DNA of 39,623 nt, taken from positions 1-39,623 of the forward strand of contig NZ_SKOG01000176.1 in the NCBI RefSeq assembly GCF_007120195.1, written 5' to 3'. This document shows, piece by piece, positions 2,055 to 33,609 of this stretch. Below the pieces are notes generated by a model, which made no database searches, had not been told where the DNA came from, and saw only the letters and a list, made by a program, of their open reading frames with translations. How positions within the stretch are numbered: position 1 is the first letter of the stretch; each line of letters begins with the position of its first letter. The DNA comes from Aquisalimonas sp. Its GTDB lineage: Bacteria; Pseudomonadota; Gammaproteobacteria; Nitrococcales; Aquisalimonadaceae. Made by a program: the position numbers and the translations under genes.

Positions 2055-2903
2055 TCAGCCGTGCCGGCCGGTGATGTAGTCTTCCGTCGCCTTCTTGGAG
2101 GGATTCGTGAACAGGGTATCGGTGTCGTTGAACTCCATGAGCTCACCCAGGTAAAGATACGCCGTGTAGTCCGACACGCGCGCGGCCTGCTGCATGTTGT
2201 GGGTGACAATGGCGATGGTGTAGTGCTTCTTCAGCTCGAAGATCAGCTCCTCGATCTTGAGCGTCGCCAACGGGTCCAGCGCCGAGGCCGGTTCGTCCAG
2301 CAGCAGGACCTCCGGTTCGATGGCGATCGCCCGCGCGATCACCAGCCGCTGCTGCTGCCCGCCGGAGAGGCCAAAGGCATTCTCGCTCAGGCGGTCCTTG
2401 ACTTCGCCCCATAGGGCCGCCCGGCGGAGGGATTTCTCCACCACCTCATCGAGAATACGCCGTTTTTTCACACCCTGAAGGCGCAGCCCGTAGGCCACGT
2501 TCTCGTAGATGGATTTCGGAAAGGGGTTGGGCTTCTGGAACACCATGCCCACCCGCCGCCGCAGCTCGGGAATGTCCACCGAGCGGTCGTATATCTCCTG
2601 GCCATCGATGCGAATGGCGCCCTCGACGCGGCAGTTGTCGATGAGGTCGTTCATCCGGTTCATGCAGCGCAGCAAGGTCGACTTGCCGCAACCTGACGGG
2701 CCGATGAACGCCGTCACCCGCTGTCGCGGGATCTTCATGTCGATCCCGTTGAGCGCCTGGTCGTTGCCGTACCAGAGCTTGAGCTGGTCAATCTCGACGC
2801 AGATGTCCTCGTTGCGGATATTCAGCTGCCGTTGTCCGCCACTGCGGCCGCGGTTCGAACTGACGGCGTGGGTGGCGGTGTCGCGGGTTTCTGTCTCACT
2901 CAT
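2055..2903 (-). CDS. pstB: Phosphate ABC transporter ATP-binding protein PstB
   Basis: PstB is the cytoplasmic ATPase subunit of the high-affinity PstSCAB phosphate importer. Its 282 residues contain Walker [10 protein letters not shown], the Q-loop region VFQKPNPFP typical of PstB, signature LSGGQQQR, Walker [14 protein letters not shown] and the switch His in VTHNMQQA. The first ~30 residues (Gly/Arg/Ser-rich) are a variable leader. It is separated from pstA by 113 bp that contain a perfect palindrome and a short hairpin followed by TTTT, which is unusual inside a pst operon and may uncouple pstB expression from pstCA. Confidence 0.97.
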
Positions 2904-2979: not shown

Positions 2980-3022
2980 GACTAGTGTCCTGTAGCCGAA
3001 ATTCGGCTACAGGACACTAGTC
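2980..3022. repeat. Perfect 43-base palindrome, copy 1 of a dispersed element, at the pstA stop
   Basis: A perfect 21-bp inverted repeat around a single central A at 3001. The right half reads TTCGGCTACAGGACACTAG, followed by TC. The core 2984-3018 matches a second copy at 32360-32394 at 31 of 35 positions. The outer CTAG contributes the TAG stop of pstA on the minus strand (3019-3017), so pstA mRNA would end in a long stable stem-loop. Resembles a REP-like or miniature palindromic repeat. No T-run follows the stem directly, so it is not a standard terminator. Confidence 0.9.
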
Positions 3023-4681
3023 GCTCTCGGCGCGGAAACGCTCCCGCAGGTGGTTTCTGATGATGATCGCGGTGAGGTTCAGCACGATGATCACCATCAC
3101 CAAGATCAGCGCCGTTGCATACACCAACGGCCGCCCTGCCTCCACGTTGGGACTCTGGAAGCCCACGTCATAGATATGGAAGCCCAGGTGCATGAAACTG
3201 CGGTCCAGGTGGAAAAACGGGAAGTTGCCGTCCACCGGCAACGCCGGCGCCAGCTTCACCACGCCCACCAGCATCAGCGGCGCCACCTCGCCGGCCGCCC
3301 GCGCCACGGCCAGAATCAGCCCGGTAATCATCGCCGGCGTGGCCAACGGCACCACGGTGCGCCAGAGCATCTCCCCCTTGGTCGCCCCCAGCGCCAGGGC
3401 GCCGTGGCGGATGGACCCGGGGATCCGTGCCAACCCCTCCTCGGTGGAGACGATCACCACCGGCAGGGTCAGCAGCGCCAGGGTGAGCGAGGCCCAGAGC
3501 ACGCCGCCCTTACCGAAGGTCGGCGATGGCAAGCGCTCGGCGTAGAAGAACTGATCGATCCCACCGCCCATGAAATAGACGAAGAAACCAAGCCCGAACA
3601 CGCCGAAGACAATGGATGGCACCCCGGCCAGGTTGTTCACCGAGATGCGGATCATGCGAATCAGCGGCCCCTGCTTGGCATACTCGCGCATGTAGATGGC
3701 CGCCAGCACACCGAAGGGCGTCACGAACACCGCCATGACCAGGGTCATGAACACGGTGCCGAAAATAGCCGGCAGAATCCCGCCCTCGGTATTCGCCTCG
3801 CGGGGATAGCCGGAGACGAAGTCCCAGAACTCGCCGACGTAAAAGACGGTTTTCTCGCCGATGCTCATGGCGTTGGGGCGACTCGGCTTGACGATATCCC
3901 CCAGCGGCATGGTCGCCCGGTGCCCTTCCGCCGTCTCGAACACGGCCTCGAAACGCTCGATGTCCTCCAGGAGTTCGTTGCGGCGTTCGACGAGTTGGTC
4001 GTACTCGGCTTCCCAGCGCTCGCGTTCCTCCCGCAAGGCCTGGGAGCGTTCTTCTCGTTCCGGCTCCGACAACGTCTCGTCGGCCTGGAGGCGGCGCTGG
4101 GCCAGGCGCACCTCCTCGATCTCGGCATTGACGTTGCCGATCTCCACGCGCTCGATGCGGCCGATCTCCTCGATACGGGGCACATTCTCCGCAAACAGGC
4201 TGTCGAACCGCTCCCAGGCCTCATCGCCCTCGGCCACCACGTCGCCGCCGACGCGCACTTCGCGCAGGTAGCCGTAGAAGTCACCCCACTGGCGACGCTC
4301 CACCCGTACGGCGTCCTCGGGGTACTCCCATTCGGACATGTTCTCCTGCACATACCAGGTGAAATCGCGGTCCGTGATGTCCCGGTTGCCGCGCTTGATC
4401 CGGTGACGGGTAATCAGGTCCCCGTCTTCATCCACCTGGAAGCCCCGCTGCTGTGCCGCCTGCACGCTGAGCACCTCGGAGCGGTCGACTTCGCCCATGA
4501 CACTGACGGGCTCGTCGCCGGGCTCGGCGTAGTCGAAGGCGACGATGTTGCTCGGCCAGAAGTGCTGCAGGCCGGTGAACACGATATGGCCAAACAGTCC
4601 CACCACGAGCACCAGACTGATGGCCACCGCGCCGGCGTTCAACCATATCCACGGTATGCCGCGATTGAACCAATTACGCAT
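3017..4681 (-). CDS. pstA: Phosphate ABC transporter permease PstA with large periplasmic N-terminal domain
   Basis: One of the two channel-forming subunits of PstSCAB. The protein is 554 residues, far longer than E. coli PstA (about 300). After a first membrane span (~14-36) comes a ~260-residue extracytoplasmic insertion of the DUF3333 kind, with a strongly charged predicted coiled coil at ~165-250 (dense Glu/Arg). The permease core starts at ~305 and includes the EAA-type cytoplasmic loop HGALALGATKGEMLW. ATG at 4681 follows GGGAGA and lies 21 bp after pstC. The stop codon TAG is formed by the outer end of the palindromic repeat at 2980-3022. Long PstA forms are known in Pseudomonas-like bacteria; the role of the extra domain is not established here. 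Confidence 0.95.
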   Translation of the reverse strand: MRNWFNRGIPWIWLNAGAVAISLVLVVGLFGHIVFTGLQHFWPSNIVAFDYAEPGDEPVSVMGEVDRSEVLSVQAAQQRGFQVDEDGDLITRHRIKRGNRDITDRDFTWYVQENMSEWEYPEDAVRVERRQWGDFYGYLREVRVGGDVVAEGDEAWERFDSLFAENVPRIEEIGRIERVEIGNVNAEIEEVRLAQRRLQADETLSEPEREERSQALREERERWEAEYDQLVERRNELLEDIERFEAVFETAEGHRATMPLGDIVKPSRPNAMSIGEKTVFYVGEFWDFVSGYPREANTEGGILPAIFGTVFMTLVMAVFVTPFGVLAAIYMREYAKQGPLIRMIRISVNNLAGVPSIVFGVFGLGFFVYFMGGGIDQFFYAERLPSPTFGKGGVLWASLTLALLTLPVVIVSTEEGLARIPGSIRHGALALGATKGEMLWRTVVPLATPAMITGLILAVARAAGEVAPLMLVGVVKLAPALPVDGNFPFFHLDRSFMHLGFHIYDVGFQSPNVEAGRPLVYATALILVMVIIVLNLTAIIIRNHLRERFRAESD

Positions 4682-4702: not shown

Positions 4703-7027
4703 TCAGAGGCTGCTGTATTTCTTGCGCAGGCGGTGGCGCACCACCTCGGCAATGGTGTTGAGGACGAAAGTCATGAGGAACAGCACAAGCGCCGCCAGGA
4801 ACAGAATGCGGTAGTGCGTGCCACCCACGGCCGCCTCGGGCATCTCCACGGCGATATTTGCTGACAGGGTGCGCATGCCCTCGAAGATGTTGAAGTTGAC
4901 CACCGGACTGTTGCCGGTGGCCATGAGCACGATCATGGTCTCGCCCACCGCCCGACCGAATCCGATCATGACCGCCGAGAAGATGCCCGGGCTGGCAGTC
5001 AGCAACACCACCGTCACTACCGCCTGCCAAGGGGTCGCCCCCAAGGCCAGCGCACCCTGGGTGAGGTGCTTGGGCACGTTGAATATGGCGTCCTCGGAGA
5101 TGGAATAGATGGTCGGGATTACGGCGAACCCCATGGCCATACCCACCACCAGGGCGTTGCGCTGGTCATAGGTAATGCCCTGATCGGTGAGCCATTGACG
5201 CATATCACCGCCGAAGAACCAGACCTCCAGTAACGGGCTCATGGACACCGCAAACCAGCCCACCGCCAACACCACCGGAATCAGCAACGCGCCCTCCCAA
5301 CCGGCCGGCACGCGACCACTTACCCCCGCGGGAATCACCCGCGTCCAGAGCCAGGCTGCGACGATGAAGGAGATCGGCGTCAGCAGCAGGATGCTGAAGA
5401 TCGCCGGCAGGTTGTTCTCGAAATAGGGTGCAGCCCAGAGCCCGGCCAGGAAGCCGAGAATCACGGTGGGCAGGGCCTCCATGATCTCGATGGTGGGTTT
5501 GGTGACGGTGCGCATGCGCGGCGCCATGAAATACGCCGAGTAGATCGCCGCCAGGATTGCCAGCGGGGCGGCGAACAGCATGGCGTAGAAGGCCGCTTTC
5601 AGGGTGCCCACGGTGAGCGGGACCATGGAAAACTTGGGCTCGAATTCCTGGGTGGCCGACGACGACTGCCAGACATAATCCGGGTTGTTGCGGCCTTCGT
5701 ACCAGACTTTCTGCCACAGCGCACTGAAGGAGATCTCCGGGTGCGGGTTTCTCACATCCAGGTAGCGAAAACCACCGTCCTCGCCCACGATCAGCATGCC
5801 GTTCTGGCGTGGCGCCATGGAGACGGAATCCACCTCGATTTCGTCGCCCAGGTTGAGTCGCGCCAGGGTGCGGTCGGAGGTGGCGTGATGCAGCTGCACG
5901 GTGCCGTCGGCGGCAGCGGTGGCGAACCCCTTGCGCGCGTGCTCCGGACCGATGCTCGTGACCGGCGCGCCGTGGGGCTCGAAGGAGCGGATCTGGGTCA
6001 GCCGCCGCTCCCCCTGCTCGTTACGCGCCAGAAACCACTGCGACACGGAGCCGTCGGAGCCGCCGGCGATGATGGACACCGCGCCAAGCAGGAAATCCAT
6101 GGCGGTCACCTCTGCATCGCCGCCCTGGATGGCCCGTTCGCTGGCAACCAGGCGCGGGTTGCGGCGATTGGAGATGTCGTAATAGTGGAGCCGGCCGTCA
6201 GCACCGCCGACGAACAGATTCCGCATGGTGGTATTCATGAGGATCTGGGTAACCTCGACACCCTCCTCCGGCCAGGGCATCTCGTAGACCTGGCGCTCCA
6301 CGGTGACATCACCGGTGAGGAAATCCTCGTCTTCCTTGAACAGGACCACCCGTAACTGCTCGTGCTCGTTGTTGGCGGCGATGATCGCGGTCCCCAATCC
6401 GCCGCGCTGCACGCCGATGACATCCAGGGCGTAACCCTCCTCGGCAAACACGTCCAGCGGCTCACCATTACCCTCCGGGTAGGTGATTTTCGGCGCGATC
6501 TGCCGCTCGCCGCCGGGATAGGAGATGTCGTAGTCGTGCCGCAAGAAGATCGCCGTGCCGTCGTCCAGGCCGTAGCCCACCAGGCGACTGCGCGCCTCGC
6601 CGGTGGCGAAGTCCGTGACATTGACGCCTTCGGGGCGGTTCAGAACCTCTTCGCTGATCACCTCGCCAGTGGTCGGGTAAAAGAACACGGCACGTGCGTC
6701 GTCGGTGAATCGCACCGCGACCTGTCGGTAGCGCTCCATGGCCGTGTGCAGGGTCGGCGCGCCGTCGGCGCCCGGGGCATCGTAACGCCCGACAGCCTCC
6801 ATTTCGGCGCTGCCGAAAATCGGTGCCGTCTCGGAAAACAGATACACGAACATCAGCACCAGCGTCACGATCACGCCAATGCCGAAGATGGCGATGGTGC
6901 CCTTGCCACACCAGTCCTTCGCGGCTCGCCAGCGCCGCAGGCGTTGGCGCTGCTGGAGTGACGGCATGTAGGAGCGCGGACCGGTTGGCCCCGACCCCGG
7001 ACTGTGAGTGCTCGCTGCATCGGTCAT
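4703..7027 (-). CDS. pstC: Phosphate ABC transporter permease PstC with periplasmic WD40-like propeller domain
   Basis: Second channel subunit of the phosphate importer, 774 residues against about 320 in E. coli. Membrane span ~43-64 is followed by ~400 extracytoplasmic residues with at least four WD-like repeats (~258-425; e.g. VGGADGRLHYYD, AGGSDGSVSQWF, TAAADGTVQLHH, VGEDGGFRYLD). The permease part begins near residue 465 and has the coupling loop ALALGATPWQAV. An in-frame ATG at 7060 is excluded as the start because it lies inside the likely -10 box (7064-7059) of the Pho-type promoter; ATG 7027 is downstream of the predicted transcript start. Cotranscribed with pstA, pstB and phoU. Confidence 0.94.
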   Translation of the reverse strand: MTDAASTHSPGSGPTGPRSYMPSLQQRQRLRRWRAAKDWCGKGTIAIFGIGVIVTLVLMFVYLFSETAPIFGSAEMEAVGRYDAPGADGAPTLHTAMERYRQVAVRFTDDARAVFFYPTTGEVISEEVLNRPEGVNVTDFATGEARSRLVGYGLDDGTAIFLRHDYDISYPGGERQIAPKITYPEGNGEPLDVFAEEGYALDVIGVQRGGLGTAIIAANNEHEQLRVVLFKEDEDFLTGDVTVERQVYEMPWPEEGVEVTQILMNTTMRNLFVGGADGRLHYYDISNRRNPRLVASERAIQGGDAEVTAMDFLLGAVSIIAGGSDGSVSQWFLARNEQGERRLTQIRSFEPHGAPVTSIGPEHARKGFATAAADGTVQLHHATSDRTLARLNLGDEIEVDSVSMAPRQNGMLIVGEDGGFRYLDVRNPHPEISFSALWQKVWYEGRNNPDYVWQSSSATQEFEPKFSMVPLTVGTLKAAFYAMLFAAPLAILAAIYSAYFMAPRMRTVTKPTIEIMEALPTVILGFLAGLWAAPYFENNLPAIFSILLLTPISFIVAAWLWTRVIPAGVSGRVPAGWEGALLIPVVLAVGWFAVSMSPLLEVWFFGGDMRQWLTDQGITYDQRNALVVGMAMGFAVIPTIYSISEDAIFNVPKHLTQGALALGATPWQAVVTVVLLTASPGIFSAVMIGFGRAVGETMIVLMATGNSPVVNFNIFEGMRTLSANIAVEMPEAAVGGTHYRILFLAALVLFLMTFVLNTIAEVVRHRLRKKYSSL

Positions 7028-7058
7028 GGTAGAGGCCCGGTAGTAACGATGTGGGCGC

Positions 7059-7092
7059 ATGCTAGGGCGCCAACATGACAGTCGTGTGACAG
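7059..7092 (-). promoter_or_regulatory. Pho box and -10 element of the pstCAB-phoU promoter
   Basis: On the minus strand CTGTCAC (7092-7086) and CTGTCAT (7081-7075) are separated by four bases, giving the 11-bp spacing of the PhoB half-sites (consensus CTGTCAT). Ten bases further is TAGCAT (7064-7059), placed where the -10 of PhoB-activated promoters lies. This predicts induction by PhoB at low phosphate and a transcript start near 7052. Confidence 0.85.
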
Positions 7093-32344: not shown

Positions 32345-32359
32345 GCGATCAGCGGCGCG

Positions 32360-32394
32360 AGTGTCCAGTAACCGGAATTCGGTTACAGGACACT
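32360..32394. repeat. Imperfect palindrome, copy 2 of the dispersed element
   Basis: Seventeen-base arms around central A 32377, with one A/A mismatch and one G/T pair. The core is identical at 31 of 35 positions to 2984-3018; the right arm reads TTCGGTTACAGGACACT and is followed by AG. One difference pair (positions 12 and 24 of the core, G-C in copy 1 and A-T here) preserves pairing. The element lies between convergent genes and its outer CTAG supplies the TAG stop of the minus-strand Ycf46-like gene (32395-32393). Confidence 0.85.
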
Positions 32395-32836
32395 AGCATA
32401 CGCCGCTGGCCCGGCGAGGGGCTGTGGTATGACGAACCCGCGCGATGTGGCCCTTGAGCGCCACCGGAATGGTCACGTTCGAGCCCACCAGCAGCACCAG
32501 GCGGCGGACACCGTCGTCCTGGGCGAGAATGCGGTGGAACCCACGCTGCACACTGGCCTTTTCCAGCACGTCCTGGAAATCGCGGATAAGGTAAATCCCG
32601 TAGTGCCGGCTGGCAGCGATATACCTCAGGGCGTCGGACAGGCCGCGGGTGTGGGGAATAAAAAGCCGCTCGCTGCCGAGCCGGTACAGTCCGTCGTTGG
32701 GCGACCAGCCATAGACGGCGCGGCCCGTGGCCAGCGTCAGGCGCTTAAAGCCGTCGACGATACGCTCAGGAACGTCTGTCTCAATGGTTGCGAGCCGGGA
32801 TTCCAACTCAATGACTTTATTCAAATTCTCGATCAT
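32393..32836 (-). CDS. Stand-alone domain resembling the N-terminus of Ycf46-type AAA proteins
   Basis: A 147-residue soluble protein. Its alternating pattern (IELESRLATIETDVPERIVDGF, shown here only in part as RLATIETDVPERI; then AVYGWSPNDGLYRL, DALRYIAASRHYGIYLIRDF and LVLLVGSNVTIPVALK) resembles the N-terminal domain that precedes the AAA+ ATPase module of Ycf46-like proteins. There is no Walker motif, so it would not be an ATPase itself. It ends inside palindromic repeat copy 2, after a basic, non-conserved-looking tail (TTAPRRASGVC), so C-terminal truncation by the element is possible. ATG 32836 is preferred to 32947 because the upstream residues look non-coding. Family resemblance is inference. 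Confidence 0.65.
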   Translation of the reverse strand: MIENLNKVIELESRLATIETDVPERIVDGFKRLTLATGRAVYGWSPNDGLYRLGSERLFIPHTRGLSDALRYIAASRHYGIYLIRDFQDVLEKASVQRGFHRILAQDDGVRRLVLLVGSNVTIPVALKGHIARVRHTTAPRRASGVC

Positions 32837-32850
32837 GGGCCGATGATCCT

Positions 32851-32885
32851 GTGGTCTAACATTCCGCACTGCGGCGTTAGGACAC
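32851..32885. other. Imperfect inverted repeat upstream of the Ycf46-like gene
   Basis: GTGGTCTAAC (32851-32860) pairs with GTTAGGACAC (32876-32885) at 8 of 10 positions, and an inner CCGC/GCGG stem (32864-32874 region) extends the hairpin. It occupies the 98-bp gap between the glycosylase stop and the Ycf46-like start. The outer arm GTGTCCTAAC is reminiscent of the GTGTCC arm of the dispersed palindrome, but the match is too short to call a third copy. Confidence 0.45.
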
Positions 32886-32934
32886 GATAGTCTGCCAGGC
32901 CCGGCACGACTGTGATGTACGTCACCATACCTCA

Positions 32935-33609
32935 TCACCGACCCCACTCGACCGGCTCAATGGTCTGCGCCGTCGGGCACAGGTGGCGCAGCGGGCAGCG
33001 GGGACAATGGGGGCGAGGCCGGCACACCTCACTGCCCAGGCGCACAAGCAGGGCATGGAATTCGTTGTAGAGCTCAGGATCCCGCGGTAGGTTCTCCTCA
33101 AACAGGGCAGCCAGCCGGGCATAGGGCTCGTCGCCGCCGGCGAGGCCAAGCCGTGCCATGATCCGACGCGTATACGCGTCGATGACGAACACCGGCCGGT
33201 GCAACGCGTACAACAAAATGCAGTCCGCCGTCTCCTCACCGATGCCCTTGATCCCCAGTAACCGCTGGCGCAGCATGGCCGTGTTCGAGGCCTGCCAGGC
33301 CTCCATGCCGCCGTCCATGAGCAGCGCCGCGGTGAGGTTGCGCAAGCGGGCGGCCTTGATGTTGTAGTAGCCGGAGGGCCGGAGCTGCTCGGCAAGGAGC
33401 AGCTCATCGACAGCCATGAGGGCGGAAGGCTCCAGGGCATCAATCGCGCGGAGATTGGCAAGCGCCCGCCTCACGTTCCGCCAAGCGGTGTTCTGGGTGA
33501 GCACTGCGCCAGCCATGACCTCATAGCCGGTGCGGGCGGGCCACCAATCCTGGGGCCCGAAAGCCGCATACAGGGCATCAAACACACGGTGAACGGCGGA
33601 CATGGTCAT
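32935..33609 (-). CDS. Endonuclease III-like HhH-GPD DNA glycosylase (MagIII-type)
   Basis: A 224-residue base-excision-repair glycosylase. It has GAVLTQNTAWRNV near the N-terminus, the helix-hairpin-helix LLGIKGIGEETAD, catalytic Asp in VIDAYTRR, and a C-terminal four-Cys iron-sulphur motif with spacing C-x5-C-x2-C-x5-C. The Lys that gives endonuclease III its lyase activity is replaced by Glu (GIGEETA), so a monofunctional glycosylase such as the 3-methyladenine-removing MagIII of Helicobacter is the closest model. ATG 33609 or 33603 begins the homologous part; the open frame up to 33732 overlaps rluB. Confidence 0.88.
   Translation of the reverse strand: MTMSAVHRVFDALYAAFGPQDWWPARTGYEVMAGAVLTQNTAWRNVRRALANLRAIDALEPSALMAVDELLLAEQLRPSGYYNIKAARLRNLTAALLMDGGMEAWQASNTAMLRQRLLGIKGIGEETADCILLYALHRPVFVIDAYTRRIMARLGLAGGDEPYARLAALFEENLPRDPELYNEFHALLVRLGSEVCRPRPHCPRCPLRHLCPTAQTIEPVEWGR

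Follow-up and report, generated by a model that had tools for sequence, protein, structure and literature searches.

What gives rise to a palindrome whose copies differ by a matched pair of base changes, and does such a pair speak for selection on the palindromic form? The question is raised by the window analyzed here, a 39,623-nt stretch of DNA from an Aquisalimonas sp. genome, in which a perfect 21-bp inverted repeat with a single central A occupies positions 2980-3022. The initial annotation placed this repeat between pstA and pstB, reported a second copy at 32360-32394, and took the paired change between the two copies as a sign that the palindrome itself is selected or copied, either as a REP/MITE-like element or as a symmetric protein site. 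Upon re-reading the sequence, we found both the inverted repeat and its second copy to be correct.

Two copies of the palindrome in the window

The transposon unit in copy 1 comprises 37 bp including both TA dinucleotides (2983-3019), compared with the 43-bp span noted earlier; the outer GAC/GTC is flanking DNA, except what the target shares. The features of this locus are as follows:

2983..3019, no strand: copy 1, a putative 37-bp palindromic minimal miniature transposon (MITE) with a TA at each end, located between the pstA-like and the pstB-like gene
2983..3000, plus strand: left transposon end of copy 1, TAGTGTCCTGTAGCCGAA, with a derived A13G change that is present in the right arm too
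3002..3019, minus strand: right transposon end of copy 1, whose minus-strand sequence is the same as the left end
3017..3019, minus strand: TAG that terminates the pstA-like gene, its TA coming from the target and its last base from the element
3017..4681, minus strand: pstA-like gene (PF00528)
2055..2903, minus strand: pstB-like gene (PF00005)

The domains BPD_transp_1 and ABC_tran fit the naming of the two neighbors as pstA and pstB, but domains as general as these are no proof of a Pst system on their own. As RNA, copy 1 folds at -41.1 kcal/mol (z = -11.4). Upstream of the pstA-like gene, a 785-aa protein is encoded at 4703-7060, in which a region ahead of the transport domain matches beta-propeller models below their cut-offs.

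Orthologous alignment of the pst site revealed that the palindrome is absent from three congeners (G003, G004, and G002) and that TA is retained at the palindrome-free site in G003 and G002. On the pstA strand, G003, the closest of the three, reads GAG AGC GAC TAA, compared with GAG AGC GAC TAG followed by the element in the window. Judged from this alignment, the insertion that gave copy 1 took place at the TA of the stop codon of pstA.

Copy 2 has the following features:

32359..32395, no strand: copy 2, a decayed 37-bp palindrome of the same family, with the left TA changed to GA and two core pairs broken
32393..32395, minus strand: stop codon TAG of a predicted 184-aa ORF, at the element edge
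32393..32947, minus strand: predicted ORF without a Pfam family

The 35-base cores of the two copies differ at positions 8, 12, 16, and 24, and the partners 12 and 24 form G-C in copy 1 and A-T in copy 2, exactly as first described. The G-C pair of copy 1 is the derived state, because A-T at this place is the family consensus. Copy 2 is imperfect, with core pairs 8/28 and 16/20 broken, and its RNA folds have z-scores of -5.8 and -6.0 on the two strands. The orthologous alignment of its site showed no palindrome in G003 and G002 (the rows of G001 and G004 were left out).

A family of miniature transposons in the genome

We searched the window's own genome (G000, a draft of 4.05 Mb in 292 contigs) and four congeners (G001-G004) with a degenerate form of the palindrome, allowing up to three mismatches, a pattern that favors well-kept copies. 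The 37-bp form was detected at 22 places in G000 (44 strand matches), and the reversed-pattern control yielded 0 matches in the same genome. A coincidence between only two copies was thereby ruled out, and the additional copies revealed further covariation. The expectation of copies in relatives did not hold: no 37-bp form was found at this threshold in the four congeners.

The ends of the family read C-TA-GTGTCCTGTAACCGAAATTCG, and its full length is about 268 bp, as judged from four elements that were read completely (266-268 bp). A single arm, CTAGTGTCCTGTAACCGAA, gave 135 matches in G000 with up to three mismatches (62 + 73), compared with 0 and 1 for the reversed control. Among the matches listed (about 100 of the 135), many arms pair as inverted ends across 163 or 266-268 bp, and the same ends are carried by 268-, 163-, 54-, and 37-bp elements within G000. 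Besides the 22 elements of 37 bp, the short forms in this genome include three of 54 bp and one each of 32, 36, and 70 bp; short forms of 43-47 bp occur in the congeners, which also carry 269-bp relatives ending in CCCAA rather than CCGAA. Coding capacity of the elements was ruled out by size only. By their sequence relationships, the 37-bp palindromes are the smallest members of a MITE family.

In addition, the family described so far (family 1) has the outer TAGTGTCCTGT in common with a sister family of 166-bp elements. The sister arm, TAGTGTCCTGTCCCG(C/T)AAATA, gave 95 matches in G000 with up to three mismatches, at least one of which (C56) is a family-1 arm, and 26 complete pairs were read. 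The sister family is the more abundant one (e.g., L214:66-231 in G000). Many G000 contigs begin about 100-120 bases inside a sister element (such as C5:99-119 and C15:99-119), which is likely to be the cause of the fragmented assembly. A nearly perfect 59-bp palindromic version of the sister family is present in the congener G004 (L201:1501-1559, corresponding to G004:C1:391774-391832).

Target site and stop codons

A target duplication of TA is supported by the pst site, which is free of the palindrome in three congeners. A 4-bp CTAG duplication was considered and rejected, since the non-CTAG targets of C149 (TTAG..CTAG) and C290 (ATAG..CTAT), if unmutated, fit 2 bp. The base before most arms is C, in line with the CTAG preference of IS630, which was reportedly described by Tenzen and Ohtsubo in 1991. 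The C290 palindrome (L014:325-379) sits in the middle of a pre-existing 20-bp palindrome, CTGCTAGAATATTCTAGCAG; its extra paired bases were considered as arm copying into the flank, which was rejected on account of this target being palindromic itself.

The first base of the element is G, and an insertion that hits the TA of a stop codon (TAA or TAG) therefore restores a TAG and spares the gene. Such stop rebuilding is supported for pstA by the empty site in G003, and may apply to the other sites. Genes were called by a simple codon-score gene finder. Among 23 tight palindromes (22 of 37 bp and one of 36 bp), 13 have an edge at the predicted stop codon of a neighbor, the element's TAG being the stop in 12 of them and TAA in C260. 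The same holds for 7 of 11 other paired elements, although the sequence around C206 was too short for calling genes. None of 34 elements lies inside a predicted gene, and only one of 20 solitary arms (see below) does so, in a low-scoring gene. For comparison, we examined CTAG sites in 110 kb, consisting of the window and 19 stretches picked around solitary arms. Element-free CTAG sites (n = 33) were located at stops (3), between genes (8), and within genes (22), compared with 10, 12, and 3 for the element-linked sites. A preference of insertions for stop codons is suggestive only, because selection removes in-gene insertions and the gene finder is simple.

Relationship to the IS630 family

An exact search for CTAGTGTCCTGTAACCSAA in a collection of species genomes, a scan that may have left out the window's own records, returned 12 stretches. 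Eight of these are in Aquisalimonas lutea and two in an Aquisalimonas MAG; Salinisphaera japonica and an Acidobacteria MAG have one each. The place in S. japonica is a complete IS630-family insertion sequence (L187, terminal inverted repeats at 58 and 1204) encoding a protein of 365 aa in which a DDE_3 domain (E = 1.2e-21) and helix-turn-helix domains were recognized. Its 23-base ends, TAGTGTCCTGTAACAGAAATTCG and TAGTGTCCTGTAACCCAAATTCG, each differ by one mismatch from the MITE end TAGTGTCCTGTAACCGAAATTCG, and the S. japonica genome has one such end pair around a DDE_3 ORF. The transposase frame (L187:57-1154) runs through the inverted repeat and ends in ISVTGH, its stop codon TAG consisting of the target TA and a flanking base.

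Because their ends nearly match those of the S. japonica element, the Aquisalimonas elements can be regarded as IS630-type MITEs, and matching ends point to an IS630-family transposase as the probable donor of their mobility. Within five Aquisalimonas genomes, including the window's own, DDE_3 was represented by a single decayed fragment in G001 (A. lutea), adjoining an end of only loose similarity (6 mismatches in 18), and no intact transposase was found. A search of the same five genomes with the S. japonica transposase, run without a positive control, gave no match. An autonomous element was also sought in contigs L049-L051, which have an arm about 1.1 kb into the contig, and rejected: the arms there are solitary, and inspection by eye of the ORFs listed for L049 and L051 revealed no recognizable transposase.

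Origin of the 37-bp form and of solitary arms

Several G000 elements have CGAAATTCG at their left inner end and CGAATTTCG at the right one, and together these form a 9-bp near-direct repeat. A computed deletion between these repeats gave a 37-bp product in three of six G000 elements tested. For C242 and C114, the product equals the consensus palindrome letter for letter, and for C246 it equals the palindrome with C246's own arm change. The other three G000 elements, which are of the ATGCG subtype or mutated, had no such repeat at the threshold used; neither had any of the four congener elements tested, giving a 37-bp product in 0 of 4. Confinement of the 37-bp form to G000 may be due to the 9-bp repeat, although the congeners also have fewer copies.

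About two dozen arms are solitary (L162-L181, e.g., L162:602), in which C-TAGTGTCCTGTAACCG is followed by unrelated sequence; in several of them, the TAG is the stop codon of a predicted gene. A partner was sought for 25 solitary arms within 330 bp or the available flank, and 24 had no match with fewer than seven mismatches; C104, which is among the 25, is a decayed palindrome. By eye, about 14 of the 24 lose similarity after 16-17 bases, near the center of the palindrome, which suggests that they are half-palindromes; shorter ones are missed at the search threshold used.

Taken together, the palindrome is probably a non-autonomous IS630-type transposon (Tc1/mariner superfamily) that has been cut down to its back-to-back terminal inverted repeats, with the arms subsequently homogenized. 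An IS630-family transposase would have placed ancestral MITEs of 160-270 bp at TA dinucleotides, mostly within CTAG, with duplication of the TA. Deletion between CGAAATTCG and CGAATTTCG would then have produced the 37-bp form, and the computed product does match the consensus. The bare palindrome might instead be a mobile unit in its own right, copied by an IS630-type transposase. Insertion with TA duplication and the single dominant junction (22 elements of 37 bp versus few other short forms) are in keeping with this idea, yet the 9-bp repeat accounts for the dominant junction without mobility. A transposase would also have to bridge two ends that have no spacer between them. We regard mobility of the bare palindrome as doubtful.

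Covariation between the arms

In the 22 palindromes, arm positions 3-16 carry 9 compensated versus 16 uncompensated changes. Random re-pairing of the arms gave a mean of 0.71 compensated changes and a maximum of five, and 0 of 20,000 trials reached nine. The paired change seen between the two copies in the window thus extends to the whole family, with a compensated pair in 9 of 22 palindromes. Positions 9, 12, and 13 are free in the search pattern, so changes there are over-represented, paired and unpaired alike. With C104 added, the counts become 9 and 20. A first count that included the 36-bp C84 gave 9 and 19; this element was dropped from the final counts, since its right arm is displaced by a 1-base deletion. 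Among 23 palindromes (22 plus C104), nine have compensated changes, 11 have uncompensated ones, one has both, and four have neither. C157 is compensated in the target TA as well (CTGG..CCAG).

Elements whose ends are spaced show hardly any compensated changes. The 26 complete 166-bp sister elements have 0 compensated versus 10 uncompensated changes at positions 3-15, and 11 other paired family-1 elements of 32-268 bp have 1 versus 8, giving 1 versus 18 for spaced ends of the same or sister type. The 22 palindromes differ from all longer elements with a Fisher p of 0.027 (0.065 with C104) and from the sister family alone with 0.036 (0.079 with C104); within family 1 alone, tight versus longer elements gave p = 0.39 with C84 included. 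The numbers are small, and the contrast in covariation between tight and long elements is weak. Since none of the palindromes has an orthologous copy in another genome, the order of mutations cannot be read.

In the proposed scheme of transposon ends brought together by deletion, the adjoining arms would allow template switching during replication to copy one arm onto the other, which would either erase a single mutation or turn it into a paired change. Palindromes with several mismatches would escape such copying and decay, and some would probably lose one arm. Abutting transposon ends would in this way be self-correcting palindromes in which compensatory changes accumulate without any function, a proposal that we consider to have about an even chance of being right.

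The main competing view is that of domesticated hairpins, in which RNA hairpins located 3' of genes serve in termination, attenuation, or the protection of 3' ends and have their arms kept paired by selection. The fold of copy 1 (-41.1 kcal/mol), the predicted stop codons at which 13 of 23 tight palindromes lie, and the compensated changes in 9 of 22 agree with this view. On the other hand, 11 of 23 palindromes carry unpaired changes, 20 in total, including six transversions that are unable to form G-U on either strand. The compensated C173 lies between divergent predicted genes, and the palindrome is missing from the four congeners searched. Moreover, the element ends in CACTAG without a T run of its own, and inspection by eye of the flanks of 18 copies revealed no regular T run of an intrinsic terminator after the hairpin. 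Transitions and transversions occur at similar ratios among compensated (6:3) and uncompensated (14:6) changes, so that there is no sign of a route through G-U, though the numbers are small. Hairpin selection appears unlikely, and template switching between the arms is favored over it.

It is also conceivable that the end variants were inherited, with different transposase specificities giving sub-lineages whose ends were already matched before being passed to the palindromes. The sister family does have species-specific matched ends (TAGTGTCCCG in G001 and G003, and CCCAG in some G004 copies), and T6C occurs in the two arms of both C235 and the 54-bp C186, which means that some of the covariation could have been inherited. 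However, each of the nine compensated changes in the 22 palindromes is a different one, and in the six G000 elements of 163-268 bp whose two ends could both be read (elements truncated at contig ends not being among them), none was found at both ends. As a general explanation, inheritance of matched ends is quite improbable. REP/BIME elements, which are mobilized by a RAYT (Y1 transposase), are likewise dispersed, extragenic, and hairpin-forming with covarying arms, but this origin deserves hardly any credence here: the target duplication of TA is symmetric, the ends are almost those of an IS630 element, and the flanks of 18 copies inspected by eye are mostly symmetric CTA..TAG without a one-sided GT(A/G)G head.

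Of the reading first proposed for the two copies, the MITE-like nature stands; the REP assignment is not supported, and covariation alone is no sign of selection or of a symmetric protein site. Arm-to-arm copying explains the covariation at least as well as either. Paired substitutions are commonly taken to prove a functional RNA stem or a symmetric binding site. Remnants of known origin with strong arm covariation offer a natural set for separating mutational homogenization from selection and, if our interpretation is true, about 20 replicates in one bacterial genome would show directly that covariation can arise without selection on RNA or protein. In addition, the design of the element (TA target, first base G) enables it to enter a stop codon and rebuild it.

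Comparison with known systems

The palindromes resemble IS630/Tc1-mariner elements (IS630, ISY100) in their ends (those of the S. japonica DDE_3 element), TA duplication, and CTAG preference, whereas they have no transposase gene and measure 37 bp versus about 1.15 kb. Insertion almost only at TA is described for ISY100 (PMC2170065). RUP (IS630-Spn1) and the Correia/NEMIS MITEs are likewise small, non-autonomous, and TA-ended, and RUP is attributed to an IS630 transposase (PMC2229807). These elements are about 107-155 bp long and have an interior; the palindromes described here have lost theirs, and their arms covary. REP/RAYT palindromes are dispersed extragenic hairpins too, but the GT(A/G)G head, which together with a Y1 (IS200/IS605-type) transposase characterizes REPs (PMC2817692), is absent here. 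We found no earlier description of these repeats in a limited literature search.

The closest parallel to the proposed mechanism is the homogenization of the arms of short inverted repeats by template switching, which is an established mutational process (PMC8604942, PMC8794818). The cases covered there share with the palindromes a short spacer, arms that turn identical, and paired changes. They are, however, yeast genes and RNA genes, whereas the repeats analyzed here are bacterial transposon remnants, in which the same mechanism would be at work.
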